From positions 64,001 to 128,000 of the forward strand of contig JACAEQ010000036.1 in NCBI GenBank assembly GCA_013388755.1: DNA of 64,000 bases, given 5' to 3'. Source of the DNA: Chloroflexota bacterium. Lineage in GTDB: Bacteria; Chloroflexota; Chloroflexia; Chloroflexales; Roseiflexaceae. The position numbers were made by a program, and so were the translations under genes. Of the stretch, positions 22,776-32,831 are shown one piece after another. How positions within the stretch are numbered: position 1 is the first letter of the stretch; each line of letters starts with the position of its first letter. The notes beneath the pieces are model-generated. The model was given only the letters and a program-made list of their open reading frames with translations, was not told the origin of the DNA and searched no databases.

Positions 22776-22804
22776 TTGACAGCCGCGCCGGTCAATGCTA
22801 CACT
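22776..22804 (+). promoter_or_regulatory. sigma-70-type promoter of the lysine cluster
   Basis: TTGACA at 22776-22781, a 17-base spacer and TACACT at 22799-22804. It drives a leader of about 180 bases that contains the leader peptide and terminator before the homoaconitase gene. Confidence 0.8.
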
Positions 22805-22838
22805 GCACAGCGGAGCCATAACGATCTTTTCACCACGT

Positions 22839-22901
22839 ATGCCTATCTTGTTTGCCAAGCAGGCCAAGCAGAGCAAGAAGCCGGACCGCAGGTCTGGTTA
22901 A
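22839..22901 (+). CDS. lysine-rich leader peptide of the lysine cluster
   Basis: A 20-residue ORF, MPILFAKQAKQSKKPDRRSG, lying between the promoter at 22776-22804 and an intrinsic terminator. Four of residues 7-14 are Lys, all AAG codons, and the last two are adjacent (22875-22880). The second Lys codon of this pair is part of a 9-bp hairpin whose 3' arm runs into the UAA stop (22899-22901). This is the layout expected of an attenuation leader peptide that senses charged tRNA-Lys upstream of lysine biosynthesis genes. A weak point is the poor ribosome site: the nearest GGAG is about 23 bases upstream. From memory, leader-peptide attenuation was reported for the Thermus thermophilus lysine cluster. 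Confidence 0.7.
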   Translation: MPILFAKQAKQSKKPDRRSG

Positions 22902-22948
22902 GCTCGCTTGTCCCGCACGGCTGGATGACAGGCCCGCTTCACCAGACC
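22879..22948 (+). promoter_or_regulatory. competing hairpins of the lysine attenuator
   Basis: Region 1 (22879-22887) pairs with region 2 (22891-22899) as a 9-bp helix with a GCA loop and two G-U pairs; it includes the last Lys codon and the stop codon. Region 2 can instead pair through GGTCTGGT (22891-22898) with ACCAGACC (22941-22948), eight Watson-Crick pairs, which takes the loop and top of the terminator stem. A small hairpin CTTGTC/GACAGG (22907-22912/22927-22932) could be a pause site. A ribosome stalled at the Lys codons would free region 2 and favour read-through. Confidence 0.65.
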
Positions 22949-22970
22949 AGGTGAGGCGGGCTTTCTTTTT
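22932..22970 (+). terminator. intrinsic terminator in the lysine leader
   Basis: GCCCGCTTCACC (22932-22943) pairs with GGTGAGGCGGGC (22950-22961), 12 pairs including one G-U, with a 6-base loop, followed by TTTCTTTTT (22962-22970). It ends 18 bases before the homoaconitase start codon, so it can only be regulatory. Confidence 0.9.
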
Positions 22971-22988: not shown

Positions 22989-24254
22989 GTGGGGCAGACA
23001 CTCGCTGAACAGATCCTTTCGCATGCCGCCGGGCGATCGGTCAGGGCTGGCGAAACCATTGTCGCCGCTGTTGACCTTGCGATGATGCACGACAGTATTT
23101 CACCCGGCATCATCAAGATCCTGCACCACGAACTGGGCGCTGACCGGGTGTGGGACCCTGAGCGCGTGGCGGTGGTGGTCGATCATGTTGCCCCGGCAGC
23201 AACTATCCAGAATGCCGAACATCAACTTGCGTTGCGCCGCTGGGTGCGCACCCGGCAGATTACCCACTTCTTCGATGTCGGGCGCGGCATCTCGCATCCC
23301 GTCCTGGTCGAAGAAGGCCTGGCACGTCCCGGCATGCTGATTATTGGCAGCGACTCGCATTCGACGGCCTATGGCGCGGTCGGCGCCTTCGGCACCGGCA
23401 TGGGATCCACTGATATGGCACTGGCCCTGGCCACCGGCCAGACCTGGTTGCGCGTGCCGGAAACCGTGCGGGTGCAGGCGCGTGGTCGCCTGCGCTCCGG
23501 CGTTGGCGCCAAGGATCTCGGCCTGCGCGTGGCGCGCCTGATCGGCGCCGATGGCGCAACATACCAGTCGGTCGAATGGCATGGCGTTGATGAACTGACC
23601 ATTGCCGCGCGTATGACGCTGGCAACATTATCCATTGAGATTGGCGGTAAGGCGGGCATCGTGCCACCCACCGGTGCGGGATGGGATGCGCATGCCGAAC
23701 AGCGCGGTATCACCGCCCCGGCATGGCTGCGGGTGGAGGAGGATGCACACTATAGCCGGACGATCGAGGTTGATCTTGACTCCCTGGAACCTCAGATCAG
23801 TGTCCCGCATTATGTTGACAACGTACAGGACCTGAGTAACCTCGGGCGCATCGCTGTTGATGTGGTCTATATCGGCACGTGTACCAATGGTCACTACGGC
23901 GACATGGCGGCAGCGGCGCGCATCCTGAAAGGACGTACAGTCGCGCGCGGGGTGCGCCTGCTGATCGTTCCCGCCTCAAGCGAGGCACTCCGCCAGGCAA
24001 CCGACGACGGGACGCTGGCGACGTTGCTTGCCGCCGGCGCGGCGATTGGCACACCTGGTTGTGGTGCCTGTATCGGGCGGCACATGGGTGTGCTGGCGCC
24101 TGGCGAGATCTGTCTGTTCACCGGCAACCGCAACTTCCGTGGCCGGATGGGTTCACCTGATGCGCAGATCTACCTTGGTTCGCCGGAGGTTGCGGCGGCG
24201 ACCGCAGTGCTGGGCTATATTGCGCATCCGGCGGAAGTGGTGAGTGAGGGTTAG
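22989..24254 (+). CDS. lysT: homoaconitase large subunit (AAA lysine pathway)
   Basis: A 421-residue aconitase-superfamily protein of the LeuC/LysT type. The [4Fe-4S] ligands are visible in GTCTNGHYGD and GCGACIGRHMG, and the substrate region in SDSHSTAYGAVGAFGTGMGSTD. With the small subunit at 26252 it should convert homocitrate to homoisocitrate; the surrounding LysW genes favour homoaconitase over isopropylmalate isomerase, though dual use cannot be excluded. The GTG at 22989 follows AGGAGG (22978-22983) by five bases. It is the first structural gene after the attenuator. Confidence 0.9.
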   Translation: MGQTLAEQILSHAAGRSVRAGETIVAAVDLAMMHDSISPGIIKILHHELGADRVWDPERVAVVVDHVAPAATIQNAEHQLALRRWVRTRQITHFFDVGRGISHPVLVEEGLARPGMLIIGSDSHSTAYGAVGAFGTGMGSTDMALALATGQTWLRVPETVRVQARGRLRSGVGAKDLGLRVARLIGADGATYQSVEWHGVDELTIAARMTLATLSIEIGGKAGIVPPTGAGWDAHAEQRGITAPAWLRVEEDAHYSRTIEVDLDSLEPQISVPHYVDNVQDLSNLGRIAVDVVYIGTCTNGHYGDMAAAARILKGRTVARGVRLLIVPASSEALRQATDDGTLATLLAAGAAIGTPGCGACIGRHMGVLAPGEICLFTGNRNFRGRMGSPDAQIYLGSPEVAAATAVLGYIAHPAEVVSEG

Positions 24255-24345: not shown

Positions 24346-24972
24346 ATGGAGGTTGACCCATCGCTTCTCATACGTGGCATGATGATCGGCTTCAGCATTG
24401 CCGCGCCTGTCGGGCCGATCGGCGTCCTCTGCATCCGGCGCACACTGGCGCAGGGGCACGCTGCCGGCCTGGTCTCAGGGTTGGGCGCAGCTACAGCCGA
24501 TGCCGTCTATGGCACCATCGCCGGTTTTGGCCTGACGTTCATATCGGTGCTGCTCGTCGGCGGGCAGTTCTGGTTGCGCCTGCTCGGCGGGTTGTTTCTA
24601 CTCTATCTTGGCGTGACGACCTTCGTCGCCCGGCCAGCCGAACGGGCCGCGCAGGCCGGTGGTCGTGGGCTACTCGGCGCCTACGCCTCGACCTTTGTGC
24701 TTACCCTGACCAACCCGGCGACCGTCCTGGCCTTCGCCGCCATCTTTGCCGGGCTTGGCCTTGCGAGCGATGCCCATGGCGACTATGCCGCCGCTACCTG
24801 GCTGGTGCTCGGCGTCTTCGTCGGATCGGCGCTCTGGTGGGTGCTGTTGAGTAGTGGCGTGAGCCTGCTGCGCTCGCGAGTTGGAGCGCGTTCGCTCACC
24901 TGGGTGAACCGGCTGGCCGGGACCATCATCGCTACCTTTGGCATGCTGGCCATCGCCAGCCTGCGCATGTGA
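24346..24972 (+). CDS. LysE-family amino acid exporter
   Basis: A 208-residue protein with six hydrophobic spans and the LysE/RhtB hallmark near the N-terminus (IAAPVGPIGVLCIRRTLAQGHAAG), then GLGAATADAVYG and TNPATVLAF. It should export a basic or small amino acid across the inner membrane. Its position inside the lysine cluster makes lysine or an intermediate the obvious candidate substrate (inference). AAGGA precedes the ATG. Confidence 0.9.
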   Translation: MEVDPSLLIRGMMIGFSIAAPVGPIGVLCIRRTLAQGHAAGLVSGLGAATADAVYGTIAGFGLTFISVLLVGGQFWLRLLGGLFLLYLGVTTFVARPAERAAQAGGRGLLGAYASTFVLTLTNPATVLAFAAIFAGLGLASDAHGDYAAATWLVLGVFVGSALWWVLLSSGVSLLRSRVGARSLTWVNRLAGTIIATFGMLAIASLRM

Positions 24973-25007
24973 CCGTTCGATCATCGCCCACGTATGAAGG
25001 AGCAGCA

Positions 25008-26126
25008 GTGCATATCGAGACAACCGCCATCCATGCCGGCCAGGAGATTGACCCGGCGACCGGTGCGGTCATCCCGCCGATCTATCTGACGACGACGTTC
25101 GAACGCGCGCCTGATGGAAGCTTCCCTCACGGCTACATTTACACCCGGAACGGTAACCCGAACCGTACGATGCTCGAAACCTGCCTGGCGGCGCTCGAAG
25201 GCGGCGCCGAGTGTGCGGCCTTCGGCTCAGGCCTGGCGGCGGCCATGAGCATCTTTCAGGCGCTCCGACCCGGTGATCACGTGATCGCTCCTGATGACGC
25301 CTACCACGGCGTTACCCGGCTCCTACGCGAAATCATGGCTCCCTGGGGCCTGGAGTATACGCGGGTTGATATGCGCGATCCACAGCATGTACGCCTGGCA
25401 ATGCGTCCGAACACACGCCTTGTCTGGATCGAAACACCCTCGAACCCGCTCCTCAAAATTGCCGACATCGCGGCGATTGCCACGATTGCCCACGCCGGCA
25501 GCGCGCGGTGCGTCGTGGATAACACCTGGGCCACACCGATCCAGCAACGCCCGCTGGAACTGGGCGCCGATCTGGTGTTGCACGCCACCACCAAGTATCT
25601 TGGCGGCCATAGCGATGTCCTGGGCGGCGCGGTGGTCTTCCGTGCCAGCGACGCGTTCTCGGAACGGGTGCGTTTCCTACAGGCAAATGGCGGCGCCGTG
25701 CCGTCGCCCTTTGATTGCTGGCTGGTGCTGCGCGGTATTCAGACACTGGCCTACCGTGTGCGCGCCCATGCCGCGCACGCCATGCAGGTTGCGCGCTTCC
25801 TTGCGGTACATCCACGTATCGAGCGCGTTCACTATCCTGGCCTGACGACTCACCCCGGCCACGCGGTTGCCGCGCGCCAGATGCACGGCTTCGGCGGTAT
25901 GCTGTCAATCGAGGTTAAAGGTGGCGAACCTGCAGCCATGGCCGTCGCGGCGAACGTGAAGATCATTACCCGCGCGACAAGCCTGGGCGGTATCGAAAGC
26001 CTGATCGAGCATCGCGCATCGGTCGAGGGACCTGAGAGCAGCACGCCGCCGAGCCTGTTGCGCATCTCGGTCGGGCTTGAGCATCCCGACGATTTGATTG
26101 CCGACCTGGCGCAGGCGCTGGAATGA
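25008..26126 (+). CDS. cystathionine gamma-synthase/lyase-family PLP enzyme
   Basis: A 372-residue Cys/Met-metabolism PLP enzyme. Typical parts are YTRNGNPNRTMLE, the cofactor stacking region GSGLAAAMSIFQAL, DNTWATP, and the PLP lysine in HATTKYLGGHSDVLGG; SLGGIESLIEHRAS near the end is also diagnostic. The GTG at 25008 is chosen because AAGGAG (24997-25002) is five bases upstream; a GTG at 24969 overlapping the LysE stop is the alternative. It could be cystathionine gamma-synthase, gamma-lyase or an O-acyl-homoserine sulfhydrylase; sequence alone does not decide. It has no step in the AAA pathway, so its place in the cluster is unexplained. Confidence 0.88.
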   Translation: MHIETTAIHAGQEIDPATGAVIPPIYLTTTFERAPDGSFPHGYIYTRNGNPNRTMLETCLAALEGGAECAAFGSGLAAAMSIFQALRPGDHVIAPDDAYHGVTRLLREIMAPWGLEYTRVDMRDPQHVRLAMRPNTRLVWIETPSNPLLKIADIAAIATIAHAGSARCVVDNTWATPIQQRPLELGADLVLHATTKYLGGHSDVLGGAVVFRASDAFSERVRFLQANGGAVPSPFDCWLVLRGIQTLAYRVRAHAAHAMQVARFLAVHPRIERVHYPGLTTHPGHAVAARQMHGFGGMLSIEVKGGEPAAMAVAANVKIITRATSLGGIESLIEHRASVEGPESSTPPSLLRISVGLEHPDDLIADLAQALE

Positions 26127-26251
26127 GACAGACGCGAGAAGGCAGGCAGTCATGCGGCCTGGAGAGAGCTCTGCCACACTGATGGCGCGTATGCGCATGA
26201 TGGGCCGAGACTGATCGCACAGGTCATCTACAAGAAAGGGACAACAAGACG

Positions 26252-26761
26252 ATGGCCCGCATCTGGCGCTTCGGCGCAAATGTCAACACCGACCAGATTG
26301 TTCCCGGGCGGTATGCGCCGTACATGCTGAAGAGCGAAGACGAATTGCGGAACTATCCGTTTATCGAGGCGCGCCCCGAGTTCGCCACAACCGTTCGACC
26401 TGGCGACCTGATTGTTGCCGGGCCGAACTTCGGCTGCGGATCGTCGCGTGAATACGCCCCGCTGGCGCTCAAAATGGTTGGTATCGGTGCGATTATCGCG
26501 CCGCTGTTTGCGCGCATCTTCTATCGCAATGCCCTCAACCTCGGCATTCCACTGTTCGAGGCGGATCTGACCGGCGAACTTGCCGATGGTCAGGAGGTTG
26601 ATTTTGATGTCACCACCGGAACATTGGCGACGCAGAACCGCGCCATCCAGTTGCCGCCGCCGCCCTCCTGGGTGCGCGAGGTGTGGGCCGAGGGCGGTAT
26701 CGTGCCCTACTATCGCAAGTATCGCCGCTTCCCGGGTGCCGGTGTGGAGACCCATGGATGA
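26252..26761 (+). CDS. lysU: homoaconitase small subunit
   Basis: A 169-residue LeuD/LysU-type swivel domain that completes the active site of the large subunit encoded at 22989. It begins RIWRFGANVNTDQIVPGRYAP; the flexible specificity loop is PYMLKSEDELRN; GPNFGCGSSREYAP is the conserved Gly-Ser-Ser-Arg motif that binds substrate carboxylates. Its stop overlaps the dehydrogenase start (ATGA). The 125 bases upstream contain a 20-codon frame with no Lys, not called. Confidence 0.92.
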   Translation: MARIWRFGANVNTDQIVPGRYAPYMLKSEDELRNYPFIEARPEFATTVRPGDLIVAGPNFGCGSSREYAPLALKMVGIGAIIAPLFARIFYRNALNLGIPLFEADLTGELADGQEVDFDVTTGTLATQNRAIQLPPPPSWVREVWAEGGIVPYYRKYRRFPGAGVETHG

Positions 26762-27864
26762 CGACCCGACCGTACACAATTCTGGTAATCCCCGGCGACG
26801 GTATCGGGCGCGAGGTTGTGCCTGCCGCGGTTGCAGTACTGCGCGCGACCGGCCTGCCTTTTGTGTTTGAGGAGGCCGCAGCGGGCTGGGAATGTTTCCA
26901 GCACACCGGCACATCCCTACCCGAACCAACACTGGCAGCCGCCCGCACCGCCGATACCGTTCTGTTTGGCGCAGTCGCCTCGCCCAGCCATCCGGTCGCT
27001 GGCTATCGTAGCCCGATTGTCTGGTTGCGCCGTGAACTGGACCTGTACGCCAATATCCGTCCCGTTGTTGAGGAACGCCCGGGTCACAACATTGACCTGG
27101 TGGTGGTTCGTGAAAACACCGAAGGGCTGTATGCCGGGCGCGAACGTGTTGAAGACAATGGCGCGACCGCTATCGCCGAACGGGTTATCACCCGGCATGC
27201 CAGTGAACGCATCGCGCGTGTCGCTTTCGACCTGGCGCGCGCCAGACATGCTGCACGCGCCGGTGCCGCCGGCAACACCCGGGCCGCGCCGCGTGTCACC
27301 GTCGTGCACAAAGCCAATGTTCTGCGTGCAACGTGCGGCCTGTTTCGCGCCGTTGCGCTGGATGTTGCGCGGACATACCCGGATGTCACAGTTGAAGAGA
27401 TGCTGGTTGATACATGCGCGCTACAACTCGCCACCCGCCCCGAACGGTTCGACGTGATCGTCACAACCAACCTGTTCGGCGACATTCTCTCGGATGTGGC
27501 ATGCGCCCGGGGCGGCGGACTGGGTGTGGCACCCTCGGCGAACATTGGCGAGACGCACGCTCTGTTCGAGCCGGTGCATGGCGCTGCGCCGGATATTGCG
27601 GGCAGGGGGATCGCGAATCCACTGGCGGCAATCGGCTGTGCCGCGTTGCTACTGGAGCACCTTGCGCAGCGCACGGCGCCGGAGGACGCGGCACCGTTCC
27701 GCCGATGCGCGGCGCGCATCCACGACGCGATACGCCGCATCCATGCCAGCGGCCCGCATACGCCCGACCTGGGCGGGAATGCGATGACCGCCGATGTCAC
27801 CACGGCGATCCTTGGGCTGCTACGCGATCCTGTGATCGTTCCATGGTCCGAAGGGAAGCACTAA
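26758..27864 (+). CDS. hicd: homoisocitrate dehydrogenase
   Basis: A 368-residue beta-decarboxylating dehydrogenase that oxidises homoisocitrate to 2-oxoadipate with NAD. It contains [14 protein letters not shown] (substrate Arg residues), [18 protein letters not shown] with the catalytic Lys, [11 protein letters not shown] for Mg2+, and [11 protein letters not shown] then [12 protein letters not shown] for NAD. The [10 protein letters not shown] and ENTEGLY segments read like Thermus homoisocitrate dehydrogenase rather than LeuB. It starts by ATGA overlap with lysU. A full repeat copy begins one base after its stop. Confidence 0.9.
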
Positions 27865-27993
27865 GCCTATCCGAAAACTCATGGGCCTGCTGTCATTGCG
27901 AGGAGCGCCAGCGACGAAGCAATCTACCGGCGCGAGAGGAGATTGCTTCGCTCGCGCTTGCAATGACATTGACCATCTGGTTTTCGGATAGGC
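27865..27993. repeat. full copy of the GCCTATCCGAAAAC palindromic repeat
   Basis: A 129-bp element with perfect 14-bp inverted ends, GCCTATCCGAAAAC and GTTTTCGGATAGGC. Inside, the arms TGTCATTGCGAGGAGCG and CGCTTGCAATGACA continue an imperfect palindrome around GAAGCAATCT/AGATTGCTTC. It carries no ORF and lies right after the homoisocitrate dehydrogenase stop. Confidence 0.9.
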
Positions 27994-28014
27994 TCTAAAT
28001 GCGGCTCCAGATAA

Positions 28015-28127
28015 CGGATTGGATGGCATAGCGCACGCAGCGACGCAATCTACCAGCACACGCCGAGAGATTGCTTTGTCGCTCACGCTCTGCGCCATGA
28101 CAGGAGACATATCGTTTTTCGGATAGG
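28015..28127. repeat. degenerate second copy of the palindromic repeat
   Basis: It retains CGACGCAATCTACCAG, GAGAGATTGCTTTG, GCGCCATGACA and the right end TTTTTCGGATAGG. The left end is eroded to ATAACGGATTGG. It lies 22 bases after a full copy and just upstream of lysW (ribosome site AAGGAGG at about 28134), so the lysW leader begins in repeat sequence. Confidence 0.75.
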
Positions 28128-28148
28128 AACTATGAAGGAGGCATCACC

Positions 28149-28316
28149 ATGAACGCCACTTGCCCCGAATGCGACGCGGAAATTACCCTGCCCGCCGGCA
28201 CCGTCGAAGGAGAGATTCTGACATGCCCCGACTGCGCCGCCGAACTCGAAGTGATCAGCCTCGACCCGCCTGAACTGGCGCTTGCTCCGCAGGTCGGCGA
28301 GGACTGGGGAGAATGA
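28149..28316 (+). CDS. lysW: LysW amino-group carrier protein
   Basis: A 55-residue acidic protein. Two Cys pairs, CPEC (residues 5-8) and CPDC (26-29), form the zinc-binding knuckle, and the C-terminus is EDWGE, the hallmark tail whose last Glu gamma-carboxyl is joined to the alpha-amino group of aminoadipate by LysX. Intermediates stay attached through phosphorylation, reduction and transamination until LysK releases lysine. AAGGAGG lies upstream with good spacing. lysX starts three bases after its stop. Confidence 0.97.
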   Translation: MNATCPECDAEITLPAGTVEGEILTCPDCAAELEVISLDPPELALAPQVGEDWGE

Positions 28317-28319
28317 CAT

Positions 28320-29165
28320 ATGCGCATTGGCATTCTCTGCTCACGCATTCGCGTTGAGGAAAAGCTGCTCTTTGCCGAACTGGAACGCCGTGCCATTGCC
28401 TATGAGCGGATTGACGACGATGAGGTCATCTTTGATCTCAACCAGGGTCGCTACGCGTATGACGTCGTCCTGGAGCGGAGCATTCACCATTCGCGTGCGC
28501 TCTATGCCCTCAAGGTACTGAATGACGCTGGCGTGCCGACCGTCAATACCGCGCAGGTCGCAGATGTGTGCGGCGACAAGTTCAAGACGACCCAGGCATT
28601 GATTCGTGCCGGCGTACCGACGCCTCGCACCCGCATGGCGTTCAGCCCGGCTTCGGCGTTACGCGCAATTGAAGAGCTTGGCTATCCGGCCGTGCTCAAA
28701 CCTGCAATCGGCTCGTGGGGGCGGCTGATCGCCAAGGTCAACGACCGTGAGGCGGCCGAGGCGCTACTGGAGCATAAAGAGATCCTTGGTTCATACCATC
28801 ATTCGATTTTCTATATCCAGGAGTATGTGCCCAAACCGCATGGGCGTGACATCCGCGCCTTCGTGGTTGGTGATGAGTGTATCTGTGCCATCTATCGCGC
28901 CAGCGCACACTGGATCACGAATACGGCGCGTGGTGGCCAGGCGAGTGTCTGCCCGGTGACGCCTGCGCTCGCGGATCTGTGCGTCAGCGCCGCCTATGCT
29001 GTCGGCGGGGGTGTGGTCGCGATCGACGTTCTTGAAGCGCCTGATGGCCGCCTGCTGGTCAACGAAGTCAATTACACCATGGAGTTTCGCAACAGCATTC
29101 AGCCCACCGGGGTCGATATTCCCGCGAAGATTATTGACTACACGCTGGCGGCAGCAAGGAGATAA
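28320..29165 (+). CDS. lysX: LysW-alpha-aminoadipate ligase LysX
   Basis: A 281-residue ATP-grasp ligase that couples alpha-aminoadipate to the C-terminal Glu of LysW. Parts seen: [28 protein letters not shown] (ATP-binding Lys and glycine loop), [21 protein letters not shown], the specificity segment [11 protein letters not shown], and [13 protein letters not shown] with the metal-binding Glu/Asn. NTARGG is the motif associated with aminoadipate-specific LysX rather than a glutamate-specific ArgX. It is downstream of lysW in the same transcript. Confidence 0.95.
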
Positions 29166-29229
29166 CCGATGCAACGCGCTGCACTGATGTTGCGCCTGGC
29201 CGCCACCTGATCCGACATGCGAGGATGGT

Positions 29230-30276
29230 ATGCCAATCAATGTCTCGATAGCTGGCGGTAGCGGCTATGTCGGCGGTGAATTGCTGCGCCTGCTGCTGTT
29301 TCACCCGCACACGGCGGTCGCGCAGGTCACCTCCGAGCGTCTGGCGGGTAAACCGGTCACCGCGGTGCACCCGAACCTGCGCGGCGTGGCAGCAGCGCGC
29401 GAACTCCAGTTCACCTCGCTTGATCGACTGGCGCCGTGCGACCTGCTGTTCCTTGCCCTGCCACATGGTGATGCAGCGCGCGCGATCGAGCGATTCGCGC
29501 AACTGGCGCCGCGAATCATTGACTGTTCCGCCGATTTCCGCCTGCGCGACCCGGCGACCTACACGCGCTGGTATGGCGAGACGCACCCGGCGCCGGCCTG
29601 GCTGGAACGCTTCGTCTACGGCCTGCCCGAACTCATGCGAGATGCACTCCGTTCCGCCAGTTATGTCAGCGGGGTCGGCTGCAATGCTACTGCCGCCAAC
29701 CTGGCGCTACTGCCGCTGGTGCGCGCCGGGCTGATCGATCCCGGGCGCGACGTGGTGGTCGAGGTCAAGGTTGGATCGTCCGAGGGCGGAGCACAACCGA
29801 ATGAATCGTCGCATCACCCCGAACGCAGCGGTGCCGTGCGATCATTCGCGCCGACCGGCCACCGCCATACTGCGGAAATCATCCAGGCGCTGGGGCTGCA
29901 GCGGGTGCATCTGTCGATCACCAGCGTGGAACTGGTGCGCGGTGCGCTCGCAACGGCACATTGCTTCCCGCCATCGCCGGTGACCGAAAAGGATCTGTGG
30001 CGCGCGTTTCGCTCGACGTACGGCAACGAACCATTCGTGCGCATCGTGCGCGAGAAGCACGGCACGTACCGCCTGCCGGAACCGAAGATTCTTGCCGGCA
30101 GCAACTATGCCGATGTGGGCTTTGCCGTTGACGAGGAGCAAGGGCGCATCGTCACGATCTGTGCAATCGATAACCTGATGAAAGGCGCCGCCGGAACCGC
30201 CGTGCAATGCATGAACCTGATGTACGGCTTCGATGAACGCGCCGGCCTGGCATTTCCTGGATTACACCCGGTGTAG
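29230..30276 (+). CDS. lysY: LysW-aminoadipate 6-phosphate reductase LysY (ArgC family)
   Basis: A 348-residue NADPH-dependent semialdehyde dehydrogenase of the ArgC family. The nucleotide loop is ISVAGGSGYVGGELLRLL-like at the N-terminus (VSIAGGSGYVGGEL). The catalytic Cys is in SGVGCNATAANLALLPL, and HRHTAEIIQAL and GAAGTAVQCMNLM are family motifs. It reduces the LysW-bound acyl phosphate to the semialdehyde; given LysX and LysZ here it is most likely LysY, though it could also serve arginine synthesis. A 13-codon frame between lysX and this gene has no Lys and is not called. Confidence 0.92.
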   Translation: MPINVSIAGGSGYVGGELLRLLLFHPHTAVAQVTSERLAGKPVTAVHPNLRGVAAARELQFTSLDRLAPCDLLFLALPHGDAARAIERFAQLAPRIIDCSADFRLRDPATYTRWYGETHPAPAWLERFVYGLPELMRDALRSASYVSGVGCNATAANLALLPLVRAGLIDPGRDVVVEVKVGSSEGGAQPNESSHHPERSGAVRSFAPTGHRHTAEIIQALGLQRVHLSITSVELVRGALATAHCFPPSPVTEKDLWRAFRSTYGNEPFVRIVREKHGTYRLPEPKILAGSNYADVGFAVDEEQGRIVTICAIDNLMKGAAGTAVQCMNLMYGFDERAGLAFPGLHPV

Positions 30277-30334
30277 CAATGCTGAAGGCTGCGTTGTGAA
30301 TACTGAATTGTGACATGCGCACGCTCAATTCCTG

Positions 30335-31885
30335 GTGCCCAAAATGAACAAAACCAGCACAAACCATCCAGATACAAACGTCCCACCGTTTCTCCACGGC
30401 GAAAACCCGGCCCAGTCACGTTACCGCGAGGCAGTTGAGCTATTTGCGCTCTTCGATTATCTCAAGGCGCGGCGCTTCGGTGTGTTCAGTATTCGTGAGT
30501 CGCTGCAGGCGGTTGGTGAGTGTCGCGACGGAACGCTCCAGGGATTTCACCTGACCGTTGATGAAGCATGGGAAGCTGTACGCGGCATGGCATCGCTTGG
30601 CGTCGGCGTGGTAGAGTTGCCGGCATTTCCGGCCAATCCGCCCGGCCAGGCGCTGAACCGCCAGTTGCTGGCGCGCGCCGCCGAGCATCACCTCACAACT
30701 AGCTTCGCCGCTCACGCGCGCTGCGTCGCCGCTGATGTCCGGGCCGCCGCCGAGACCGGCTTCCGCCGCATTCATCTCTATATCGGCGCCAGCCCGATCA
30801 AGCAAGCCACGGCGCGCGCCAGTGCACCAGAACTCGCGGAAAAAGCATTCGACGCCATTCGTCTGGCCCGCCAGCTCGGTTTCGACTGCGTGCGTATCAG
30901 CACAGAGGATGCCTTCCGCACCCCCCTCGACGATTACCGGGCGTTCTACGCGCGGCTGCAGGAATTATTGCTGCGCCACGAGCTGTCTGTCGACGGCATT
31001 GGCATTCCGGATTCGGTCGGCGTCGGGACGATTGATGAACTCGGCGATCGCATCGCCGTGCTGCGCCATGTTGGCATCCAGTTCTCATTCCTGGAGTGCC
31101 ACATTCATAACGACATCGGCCATGCCGATCGTCTGTATGTTGATACGCTCCTCCTGTGCATGCGGCTCGGGATCACGATGCTGCCTGATTTCTCGATCCT
31201 CGGCATCGGCGAGCGAAATGGAACGATCGGTCTTAGTTCGTTGATCGAGGCCATCTACCGGCGATTGCTGCTCCTGTACCCACGCGCCATGGCGACCATC
31301 CGCCAGGCAGTACGCGATAAGCTCGGCGTGTTGCCTGACGGCGAGCTCTTCGTCAATCGCTACCGCGATCTCGACGCATTCTTTTATCGCATCCTGGCGC
31401 GCGGCGGGTTCGTCTTCGACCGCAGTCCATTCTCATCCAACACCGAATATGATGGCTCCGGCGTCCACGCAGACACAACCCGGCGCGCATTTTATCTCGC
31501 CCTTACCGATGGCCACGATGGGCAGCAGGCGATCGATCTCGGCAACAGCGCCTACGCCGGGGCTTTGCCACCATACGACATGCCGCTACGCAGACCGGTA
31601 CTGGCCTGTTTCGGCTGCGGCAAGAGCAATGTGCGCTACTGGCGGGAGTGTGAGCACCTGGCACTGCGCCGCCCGGAGGATATCCAGGCACGCCTCGCGC
31701 CCTACCTGACGGACCTCGATGGGCACGACCCGGCAGCGCCACTGGATGAAACACTGGCTGACGAACTGGCCGCGCGCCTGATCCGGTGCGCCAGTGTGCG
31801 CGCGGGGGGCATCAACCATCACCAGGCGATGGACATTGTGAGGATCTTCTACCAGGCTGCCTGTAGCGGCGAGCAGCAACCATGA
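30335..31885 (+). CDS. divergent homocitrate synthase-like enzyme
   Basis: A 516-residue HMGL-like TIM-barrel protein. The usual N-terminal STLREGEQ is here SIRESLQ (52-58), keeping Arg54, Glu55 and Gln58. RISTEDAFRT (187-196), GIPDSVGVGT (223-232), the metal-binding HIHND (H256, H258) and LGIGERNG (289-296) closely follow homocitrate synthase; GERNG is the same as in the Thermus enzyme. It would join 2-oxoglutarate and acetyl-CoA, the first AAA step, otherwise missing from the cluster. It is about 130 residues longer than typical, with a novel C-terminal part that has a Cys pair in CFGCGKSN. The GTG at 30335 or the ATG at 30344 may be the start. Confidence 0.8.
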   Translation: MPKMNKTSTNHPDTNVPPFLHGENPAQSRYREAVELFALFDYLKARRFGVFSIRESLQAVGECRDGTLQGFHLTVDEAWEAVRGMASLGVGVVELPAFPANPPGQALNRQLLARAAEHHLTTSFAAHARCVAADVRAAAETGFRRIHLYIGASPIKQATARASAPELAEKAFDAIRLARQLGFDCVRISTEDAFRTPLDDYRAFYARLQELLLRHELSVDGIGIPDSVGVGTIDELGDRIAVLRHVGIQFSFLECHIHNDIGHADRLYVDTLLLCMRLGITMLPDFSILGIGERNGTIGLSSLIEAIYRRLLLLYPRAMATIRQAVRDKLGVLPDGELFVNRYRDLDAFFYRILARGGFVFDRSPFSSNTEYDGSGVHADTTRRAFYLALTDGHDGQQAIDLGNSAYAGALPPYDMPLRRPVLACFGCGKSNVRYWRECEHLALRRPEDIQARLAPYLTDLDGHDPAAPLDETLADELAARLIRCASVRAGGINHHQAMDIVRIFYQAACSGEQQP

Positions 31886-32027
31886 TTCGCGGGCGCGCCG
31901 CCGTTCCTGCACACAGACCACACATGTTTGATTGAAGACTCGGCGCGGTGCATCCGGCGCGAGCGACGTCGCGCTGGTTGCCAGACAGATCGCCTGGAAC
32001 TGCACGAGAGAGGAGAGGAGAGGTATC

Positions 32028-32831
32028 ATGATCGTCGTCAAGGTCGGCGGCGGAGCCGGTATCGTGTACGATGCATTGTGTGCCGACGTAGCCACGCTTG
32101 TGCACGCTGGCCAGCAGATCATCCTGGTACACGGCGGCTCGCAGGAAACCAATGCGCTCGCCGAGCGCCTGGGCCATCCACCACGATTCGTCACTTCACC
32201 GTCGGGCTATACCAGTCGCTACACCGATCGCGCGACGCTGGAGATTTTTCTGATGGCTGTCGCCGGCAAAGTCAACAAGCTGATCGTTGAGCAGTTGCAG
32301 CGCCTGAAGGTGAATGCCGCCGGCCTTACCGGCCTTGACGGACGGCTCTTGCAAGCACAGCGCAAAGCCATCATCCGGATCGTCGAGGATGGCAAGCAGA
32401 AAGTGTTGCGCGATGACTGGACCGGCGTCATCGAGCACGTGAATACCGGGCTGATCCAGCTCCTGCTGCATGCTGGCGTGCTACCGGTCGTTGCGCCGAT
32501 TGCTGCCAGCCACGACGGTGAGGCGCTGAATGTTGATGGCGACCGGGCAGCAGCGGCGCTTGCCACGGCGCTTGGCGCAGAAACTCTGCTCCTGCTGACC
32601 AATGTTCCCGGGCTCTTGCGCGCGTTTCCCGACGAAAGCACGCTTATTCGCCACATCCCGCGAGCTGATATCGAGTCATTCCTTCCGCTTGCCCAGGGAC
32701 GGATGAAAAAGAAGCTTCTCGGTGCTTCCGAGGCGCTCAGCCGGGGAGTTGGATGTGTTATCCTGGGAGATGCACGCCGGGCCGAACCGATTTCGCGCGC
32801 GCTTGCCGGTGAAGGAACCATGATACGGTGA
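32028..32831 (+). CDS. lysZ: LysW-aminoadipate kinase LysZ
   Basis: A 267-residue amino-acid kinase of the ArgB/LysZ group that phosphorylates LysW-bound aminoadipate on its side-chain carboxylate. It opens IVVKVGGGAG and has VHGGSQETN, a substrate segment with PSGYTSRYTD, LNVDGDRAAAALA and MKKKLLGASEAL near the end. The SGYTSRYTD sequence replaces the arginine-type GLRVTD segment of ArgB, as expected for LysZ. The ATG at 32028 follows GGAGAGG. Its stop overlaps the next start (GTGA). Confidence 0.94.
   Translation: MIVVKVGGGAGIVYDALCADVATLVHAGQQIILVHGGSQETNALAERLGHPPRFVTSPSGYTSRYTDRATLEIFLMAVAGKVNKLIVEQLQRLKVNAAGLTGLDGRLLQAQRKAIIRIVEDGKQKVLRDDWTGVIEHVNTGLIQLLLHAGVLPVVAPIAASHDGEALNVDGDRAAAALATALGAETLLLLTNVPGLLRAFPDESTLIRHIPRADIESFLPLAQGRMKKKLLGASEALSRGVGCVILGDARRAEPISRALAGEGTMIR

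Follow-up and report, generated by a model that had tools for sequence, protein, structure and literature searches.

A probable lysine leader-peptide attenuator before the LysW-dependent lysine cluster of a Chloroflexales bacterium and its apparent relatives with other control codons

Leader-peptide attenuation is a classical mechanism. The trp, his, leu, and thr attenuators of enterobacteria combine a leader peptide bearing control codons, four RNA regions (1–4) with mutually exclusive pairings, and a terminator before the first structural gene. T-box leaders sense uncharged tRNA, which prevents termination, while the lysine riboswitch (L box) controls lysine genes, often by termination. For the lysine cluster of Thermus thermophilus, a leader-peptide attenuator has reportedly been described by Tsubouchi and colleagues.

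The window (the whole 64,000-nucleotide stretch of Chloroflexota DNA analyzed) harbors a putative attenuator of this kind at 22776–22970, directly before lysT. It shares with the enterobacterial systems the control-codon leader peptide, the exclusive pairings, and the intrinsic terminator. It differs from them in that most families have region 3 in the terminator loop and upper stem, one RNA core appears to be used for several amino acids, and the host belongs to the Chloroflexota. As in T-box leaders, uncharged tRNA would be sensed to counteract termination, but here sensing would proceed via translation, and no T-box is matched. The lysine riboswitch also targets lysine genes; the present leader, in contrast, has no Rfam match and no aptamer. 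Rfam searches at gathering and lax thresholds returned nothing relevant, including no match to the T-box or Lysine covariance models.

The Thermus lysine leader is similar in pathway and control codon. Thermus loci carry MLARAKKLGRRGVG-stop or a one-residue variant (MLAR[AG]KKLGRRGVG), with a terminator immediately 5′ of the homocitrate synthase gene, consistent at the sequence level with the reported lysine attenuator. However, they lack the Chloroflexota core: no TCTGG/CCAGA element is discernible by eye, the peptides differ outside the Lys residues, and a scan of two Thermus genomes with the core model returned nothing significant. Separately, Lys-rich short ORFs and terminators without the TCTGG core precede lysine genes in Acanthopleuribacter and Anaerolineae records (L089:2281-2385, L095:1771-1848, and L141:99-173); these are possibly independent lysine attenuators. 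Neither the open-access literature searched nor Rfam yielded an entry or paper on the Chloroflexota elements. Lysine leader attenuation is reportedly already known in Thermus; the Chloroflexota core family appears to be new.

Architecture of the leader and its operon

The features of the leader and of the downstream operon, all on the forward strand, are as follows.

22776–22804, + strand: sigma-70-type promoter, −35 TTGACA (22776–22781), 17-nt spacer, −10 TACACT (22799–22804), with an extended −10 TG; from the sequence, hexamers kept in the ten closest leaders
22839–22901, + strand: leader peptide ORF MPILFAKQAKQSKKPDRRSG-stop, 20 codons, ATG at 22839 and stop TAA at 22899–22901; cognate in 46 of 46 assessable Chloroflexales lysT genomes
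22857–22880, + strand: AAG control codons at 22857, 22866, 22875, and 22878; position kept across 52 leaders
22865–22887, + strand: region 1, CAAGC.GAGC (overlapping Lys codons) and AGCCGGACC; from the fold, CCGGAC kept in another frame in family f2
22891–22899, + strand: region 2, GGTCTGGTT (final codons and stop); TCTGG(T) before the stop near-invariant in 52 leaders
22902–22910, + strand: GCTCGCTTG, 3′ strand of the outer 1:2 stem; from the fold, nearly invariant in the closest ten leaders
22907–22932, + strand: possible small hairpin between regions 2 and 3, CTTGTC (22907–22912) with GACAGG (22927–22932); from the alignment of the ten closest leaders
22930–22970, + strand: intrinsic terminator, 14-bp stem (22930–22943/22950–22963), then TCTTTTT (22964–22970); stem covaries
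22941–22948, + strand: region 3, ACCAGACC, terminator loop and top of the 5′ arm, complementary to region 2
22989–24254, + strand: lysT, homoaconitase large subunit, putatively the first regulated gene; NCBIfam TIGR01343 and PRK00402, above cut-off
24346–32831, + strand: remaining lysine (LysW) cluster; profile matches, lysW by sequence reading
from 24346, + strand: LysE-type gene, second gene of the lysine operon
from 24969, + strand: PLP enzyme
from 26252, + strand: lysU
from 26683, + strand: isocitrate/homoisocitrate-type dehydrogenase
from 28149, + strand: lysW (sequence reading)
from 28320, + strand: lysX
from 29230, + strand: argC/lysY-like reductase
from 30335, + strand: HMGL-like (homocitrate synthase-like) gene
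from 31932, + strand: lysZ

The promoter, the 20-codon ORF with four Lys codons, a 9-bp hairpin, and an 8-bp alternative pairing had all been placed correctly by the original prediction, as judged from sequence and fold. The promoter hexamers have 10 of 12 matches in addition to the extended −10 TG. In the minimum free energy fold, the 9-bp hairpin (22879–22887/22891–22899) caps a larger 1:2 arm, whose outer part pairs the Lys-codon sequence CAAGC.GAGC (22865–22874) with GCTCGCTTG (22902–22910) past the stop codon. In the alternative 2:3 pairing, GGTCTGGT (22891–22898) is complementary to ACCAGACC (22941–22948). The small hairpin between regions 2 and 3 also occurs in the predicted antiterminator folds of relatives. 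The terminator ends 18 bases 5′ of the lysT GTG at 22989, as proposed; its stem comprises 14 pairs rather than the 12 first given. The poor ribosome site raised as a weak point is partly borne out, in that a Shine–Dalgarno sequence is absent from the window leader and from 10 other leaders; many others have one.

Lys codons account for 1.4% (33/2328) of the codons in seven lys-cluster genes, giving a probability of 1.6e-4 for at least four in 20 codons, and the window leader folds with z = −2.6. These values, and decisively the conservation of the whole unit across Chloroflexales, place the leader beyond chance.

On the basis of profile matches and sequence reading, the downstream genes constitute a LysW-dependent aminoadipate lysine cluster, presumably transcribed as a single message. 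Its homocitrate-synthase-like gene (30335–31885) is of an unusual form, scoring far under the curated homocitrate synthase cut-off (E 6e-23, 82 versus 414 bits).

Conservation and covariation in Chloroflexales

A search of 60 related genomes for lysT found a close orthologue in 47, and the DNA upstream of these genes was compared. One genome (G043), whose contig ends 195 bases 5′ of lysT, was left out; among the remaining 46 assessable genomes, the leader of G047 was detected by the covariance model. A Lys-rich short ORF followed by a terminator heads the lysine cluster in 46 of 46. Most members of the window's family have the leader immediately 5′ of lysT, and the other families have it 5′ of the homocitrate synthase gene; because it precedes whichever gene comes first, it is tied to the operon head and not to one gene. 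The alignment suggested by the original prediction thus found the Lys codons, the 1:2 and 2:3 complementarity, and the terminator kept in every assessable Chloroflexales genome, with no homologous leader devoid of Lys codons or terminator among the 46, and this comparison across leaders supports the lysine-attenuator interpretation.

The peptides are variants of K[QK]xxKxKKPxxxSG-stop, with two to four Lys codons at a fixed place (L013 retains just two Lys) and five extra codons beyond the usual end in Herpetosiphon-type leaders. Of the Lys codons within the last 20 codons of 52 leaders, nearly all occupy the stretch from −14 to −7, counted in codons from where region 2 ends. Invariant or nearly so among the ten closest leaders are the promoter hexamers, the Lys-codon strand, CCGG, GTCTGG, the stop codon, GCTCG.TTGTC, and GCGGGC; the spacers vary. 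In a background scan of the named loci, nearly all Chloroflexales records showed the leader on the forward strand, whereas the reverse strands of these records yielded no comparable ORF. The window's genome has no further copy beyond reverse-strand echoes and weak partial matches, and a Pfam search of the leader peptides gave no matches. In the Chloroflexus-type leaders L084, L085, L156, L158, L160, and L161, the −10 box lies about 9 nt 5′ of the ATG, so close that transcription may begin at or next to the ATG and give a leaderless message.

Both-sided changes that preserve the pair occur in 8 of the 13 consensus pairs of the terminator stem, which is the sole structure that RNAalifold detects in the lysine leader alignment. 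In the 1:2 hairpin (CCGGAC:GTCTGG), one pair is broken in about half of the sequences and the other five are kept in 32–33 of 33. In family f2, CCGG[AG]C sits one base out of its usual reading frame, such that the peptide reads GRT instead of PD, with the pairing intact and the Lys codons still in frame. Essentially all 39 distinct non-Herpetosiphon sequences retain the central pairs of helix 2:3, and the flanking positions pair above the expectation from column composition (19 versus 12.4 and 25 versus 19.6); in the table of 1:2 and 2:3 pairings, L062 stands in the wrong register. Two leaders carry double changes from T-A to C-G, namely L057 and L075; in the latter, Ser becomes Leu and region 3 changes to match. 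The near-invariance of regions 2 and 3 in most families limits covariation there.

The terminator loop or 5′ arm stays complementary to region 2 across the leaders. In the Herpetosiphon type, the loop motif is gone and 2:3 is rebuilt with other letters, as seen by direct reading for GCGAGTCT with AGGCTCGC, GCGGGTCTGG with CCTGACCCGC (one mismatch), and CGGGTCTGG with CCAGCCCG (one bulge). Duplexes with the leader's own partner are the stronger ones, at −15.0 kcal/mol versus −13.1 kcal/mol for other partners, and 0 of 5000 permutations are as good, a result that is supportive and not proof, as the permutation ignores relatedness.

The RNA core with other control codons

Scanning 400 Chloroflexota genomes with a covariance model built on the lysine leader (R1) recovered the lysine leaders as well as weaker second sites that leave out the Lys-codon part. 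On reading, these sites have the same C-terminal half with different codons. RNAalifold returned no pair for the mixed-family alignment; therefore, the core model (R2) is sequence-only. Ten genomes outside the Chloroflexota gave no hit to it with E below 0.008. Together with further loci, R2 brought out three groups of leaders.

Arg-rich leaders (e.g., CGT CGT CAG CGT CGT ... P...PG-stop) precede argG, a phosphoglycerate-mutase-like gene followed by argJ, and argC (L199–L206, L208, and L253–L259 at argG/argJ operons; L218 and L260 at argC). Nearly all Chloroflexaceae-type (f4) genomes scanned have one Lys and one Arg copy. Pro leaders (NPNPSPR...RSG-stop; L261–L266) come from a single Chloroflexota family (f13) that lies outside the window's class. 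The operons they precede contain MazG-like and LOG-family genes and proline--tRNA ligase, the last directly seen in L261 and L265. Gln-rich leaders (QQQQ.NQP..RSG) precede LysE-type translocators (L207, L211, L213, L216, L217, L268, L269, L271, and L272); to our knowledge, no Gln leader-peptide attenuator has been described so far. The argG, argJ, proS, and LysE identities were assigned with Pfam/NCBIfam on one example each, and those of the other members and of argC by sequence reading.

Within the 12-residue control stretch, the mean cognate counts are 3.8 K for lys, 4.9 R for arg, 4.0 Q for LysE, and 2.8 P for pro leaders. The cognate total is 347 versus 182 with shuffled labels (maximum 238), a descriptive figure and not one from an independent sample, as the groups were assembled by reading. 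To judge from these sequences, the window leader is apparently one member of an undescribed modular attenuator family. A phylum-wide Chloroflexota cassette is the slightly favored reading, in which one core (CC[AG]G..., TCTGG-stop, CCAGA terminator) was inherited or spread between operons with only the control codons exchanged: Lys for lysine clusters, Arg for argG/argJ/argC, Pro for proS, and Gln (or Lys) for LysE-type transporters.

The LysE-type genes present a puzzle. In G007 (L209/L275), which has no close lysT orthologue, a Lys leader precedes a LysE-type gene and a Cys/Met PLP enzyme, and the same gene pair also resides inside the window's lysine operon (24346–26126). Under leaders of the Gln or Lys starvation type, supposed exporters would be switched on by Gln or Lys shortage. 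Starvation-induced export would make little sense; these proteins could import, handle another substrate, or serve as a safety valve coupled to synthesis.

Ribosome position, proposed mechanism, and alternative explanations

Each leader was folded with the ribosome-covered RNA masked at every codon, with an assumed distance of 14 nt between the A-site codon and the mask edge. As long as strand 4 has not been made, 2:3 remains available with the ribosome at codons −14 to −7 (mean 6.5–8.8 pairs) and is reduced to approximately zero from −5 on. In full-length folds, the mean terminator probability is 0.54–0.67 at codons −14 to −9, 0.81 at −8, and 0.92 at −7, versus approximately 0.88 far upstream and 0.96 downstream (from −6 on) of the Lys codons.

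With the ribosome placed at the first Lys codon, the RNA of about 15 leaders (e.g., L002, L009, L058, L061, and L067) flips as a whole into an antiterminator, predicted to pair strand 1 with strand 4 and to enclose 2:3. For these leaders, the flip answers the earlier worry that the alternative pairing disrupts only the top of the terminator. For the window leader the worry holds: 2:3 disrupts only the top, and at equilibrium the terminator out-competes it and stays formed for every ribosome position (probability 0.8–1.0). The switch there must therefore act during transcription (kinetically) or via a strained pseudoknot. Most Arg leaders behave as attenuators in the folding test, and the Gln leaders keep their terminators at equilibrium.

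The lysine leader comprises an ORF with cognate control codons before the cognate operon, an intrinsic terminator that separates this ORF from the first gene, and mutually exclusive 1:2 and 2:3 pairings with the control codons in or beside strand 1. On comparative and modeling grounds, it very probably represents a ribosome-mediated (leader-peptide) transcription attenuator controlling the lysine cluster. With ample Lys-tRNA, the ribosome would reach the stop codon and cover region 2, and the terminator would form; untranslated RNA would adopt 1:2 plus the terminator and also terminate. When Lys-tRNA is scarce, the ribosome would pause at an AAG codon and open the 1:2 arm, such that the freed region 2 could pair with region 3 once transcribed and RNA polymerase would continue into lysT. 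In many relatives, the freed strand 1 would also pair with the 3′ arm of the terminator, yielding a stable global antiterminator.

The best surviving alternative, itself improbable, is an arrest peptide, in which the nascent KQxKxSKKPxxxSG would sense free lysine in the ribosome tunnel and stall at a fixed site, instead of Lys-tRNA being sensed via codons. The C-terminal half does look conserved, with Pro and Ser-Gly before the stop; however, its residues follow the needs of the RNA, which disfavors this explanation. Family f2 keeps the CCGGAC nucleotides at the cost of PD, L075 replaces Ser as region 3 changes, and the same C-terminal half accompanies runs of Arg, Pro, or Gln in the leaders of arg, proS, and LysE genes; L013, moreover, is down to two Lys. 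Even less probable is a constitutive leader whose terminator merely fixes a basal level, the Lys-rich ORF having no regulatory role. The very stable terminator and a window antiterminator that opens only its top would suit such a leader, but the kept complementarity of regions 2 and 3 and the operon-matched codon identity would be left unexplained. Least probable is a ligand- or tRNA-binding RNA (lysine riboswitch or T-box) driving the terminator beside an incidental ORF, for although many bacteria use these in lysine operons and the structure is a terminator-linked leader, neither is matched in Rfam at either threshold, the in-frame Lys codons at fixed positions go unexplained, and the entire element is just ~130 nt.

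The leader-peptide attenuator offers a sequence-level account of the control of aminoadipate/LysW lysine synthesis across Chloroflexales and would indicate that leader-peptide attenuation is used widely outside the well-studied phyla. A shared core with exchanged codons would show the re-specification of an attenuator between amino acids, and its natural variants constitute ready test material. If the cassette reading is true, the LysE-type "exporters" may be importers or handle another substrate, and the direction of LysE-type transport in Chloroflexota becomes testable.
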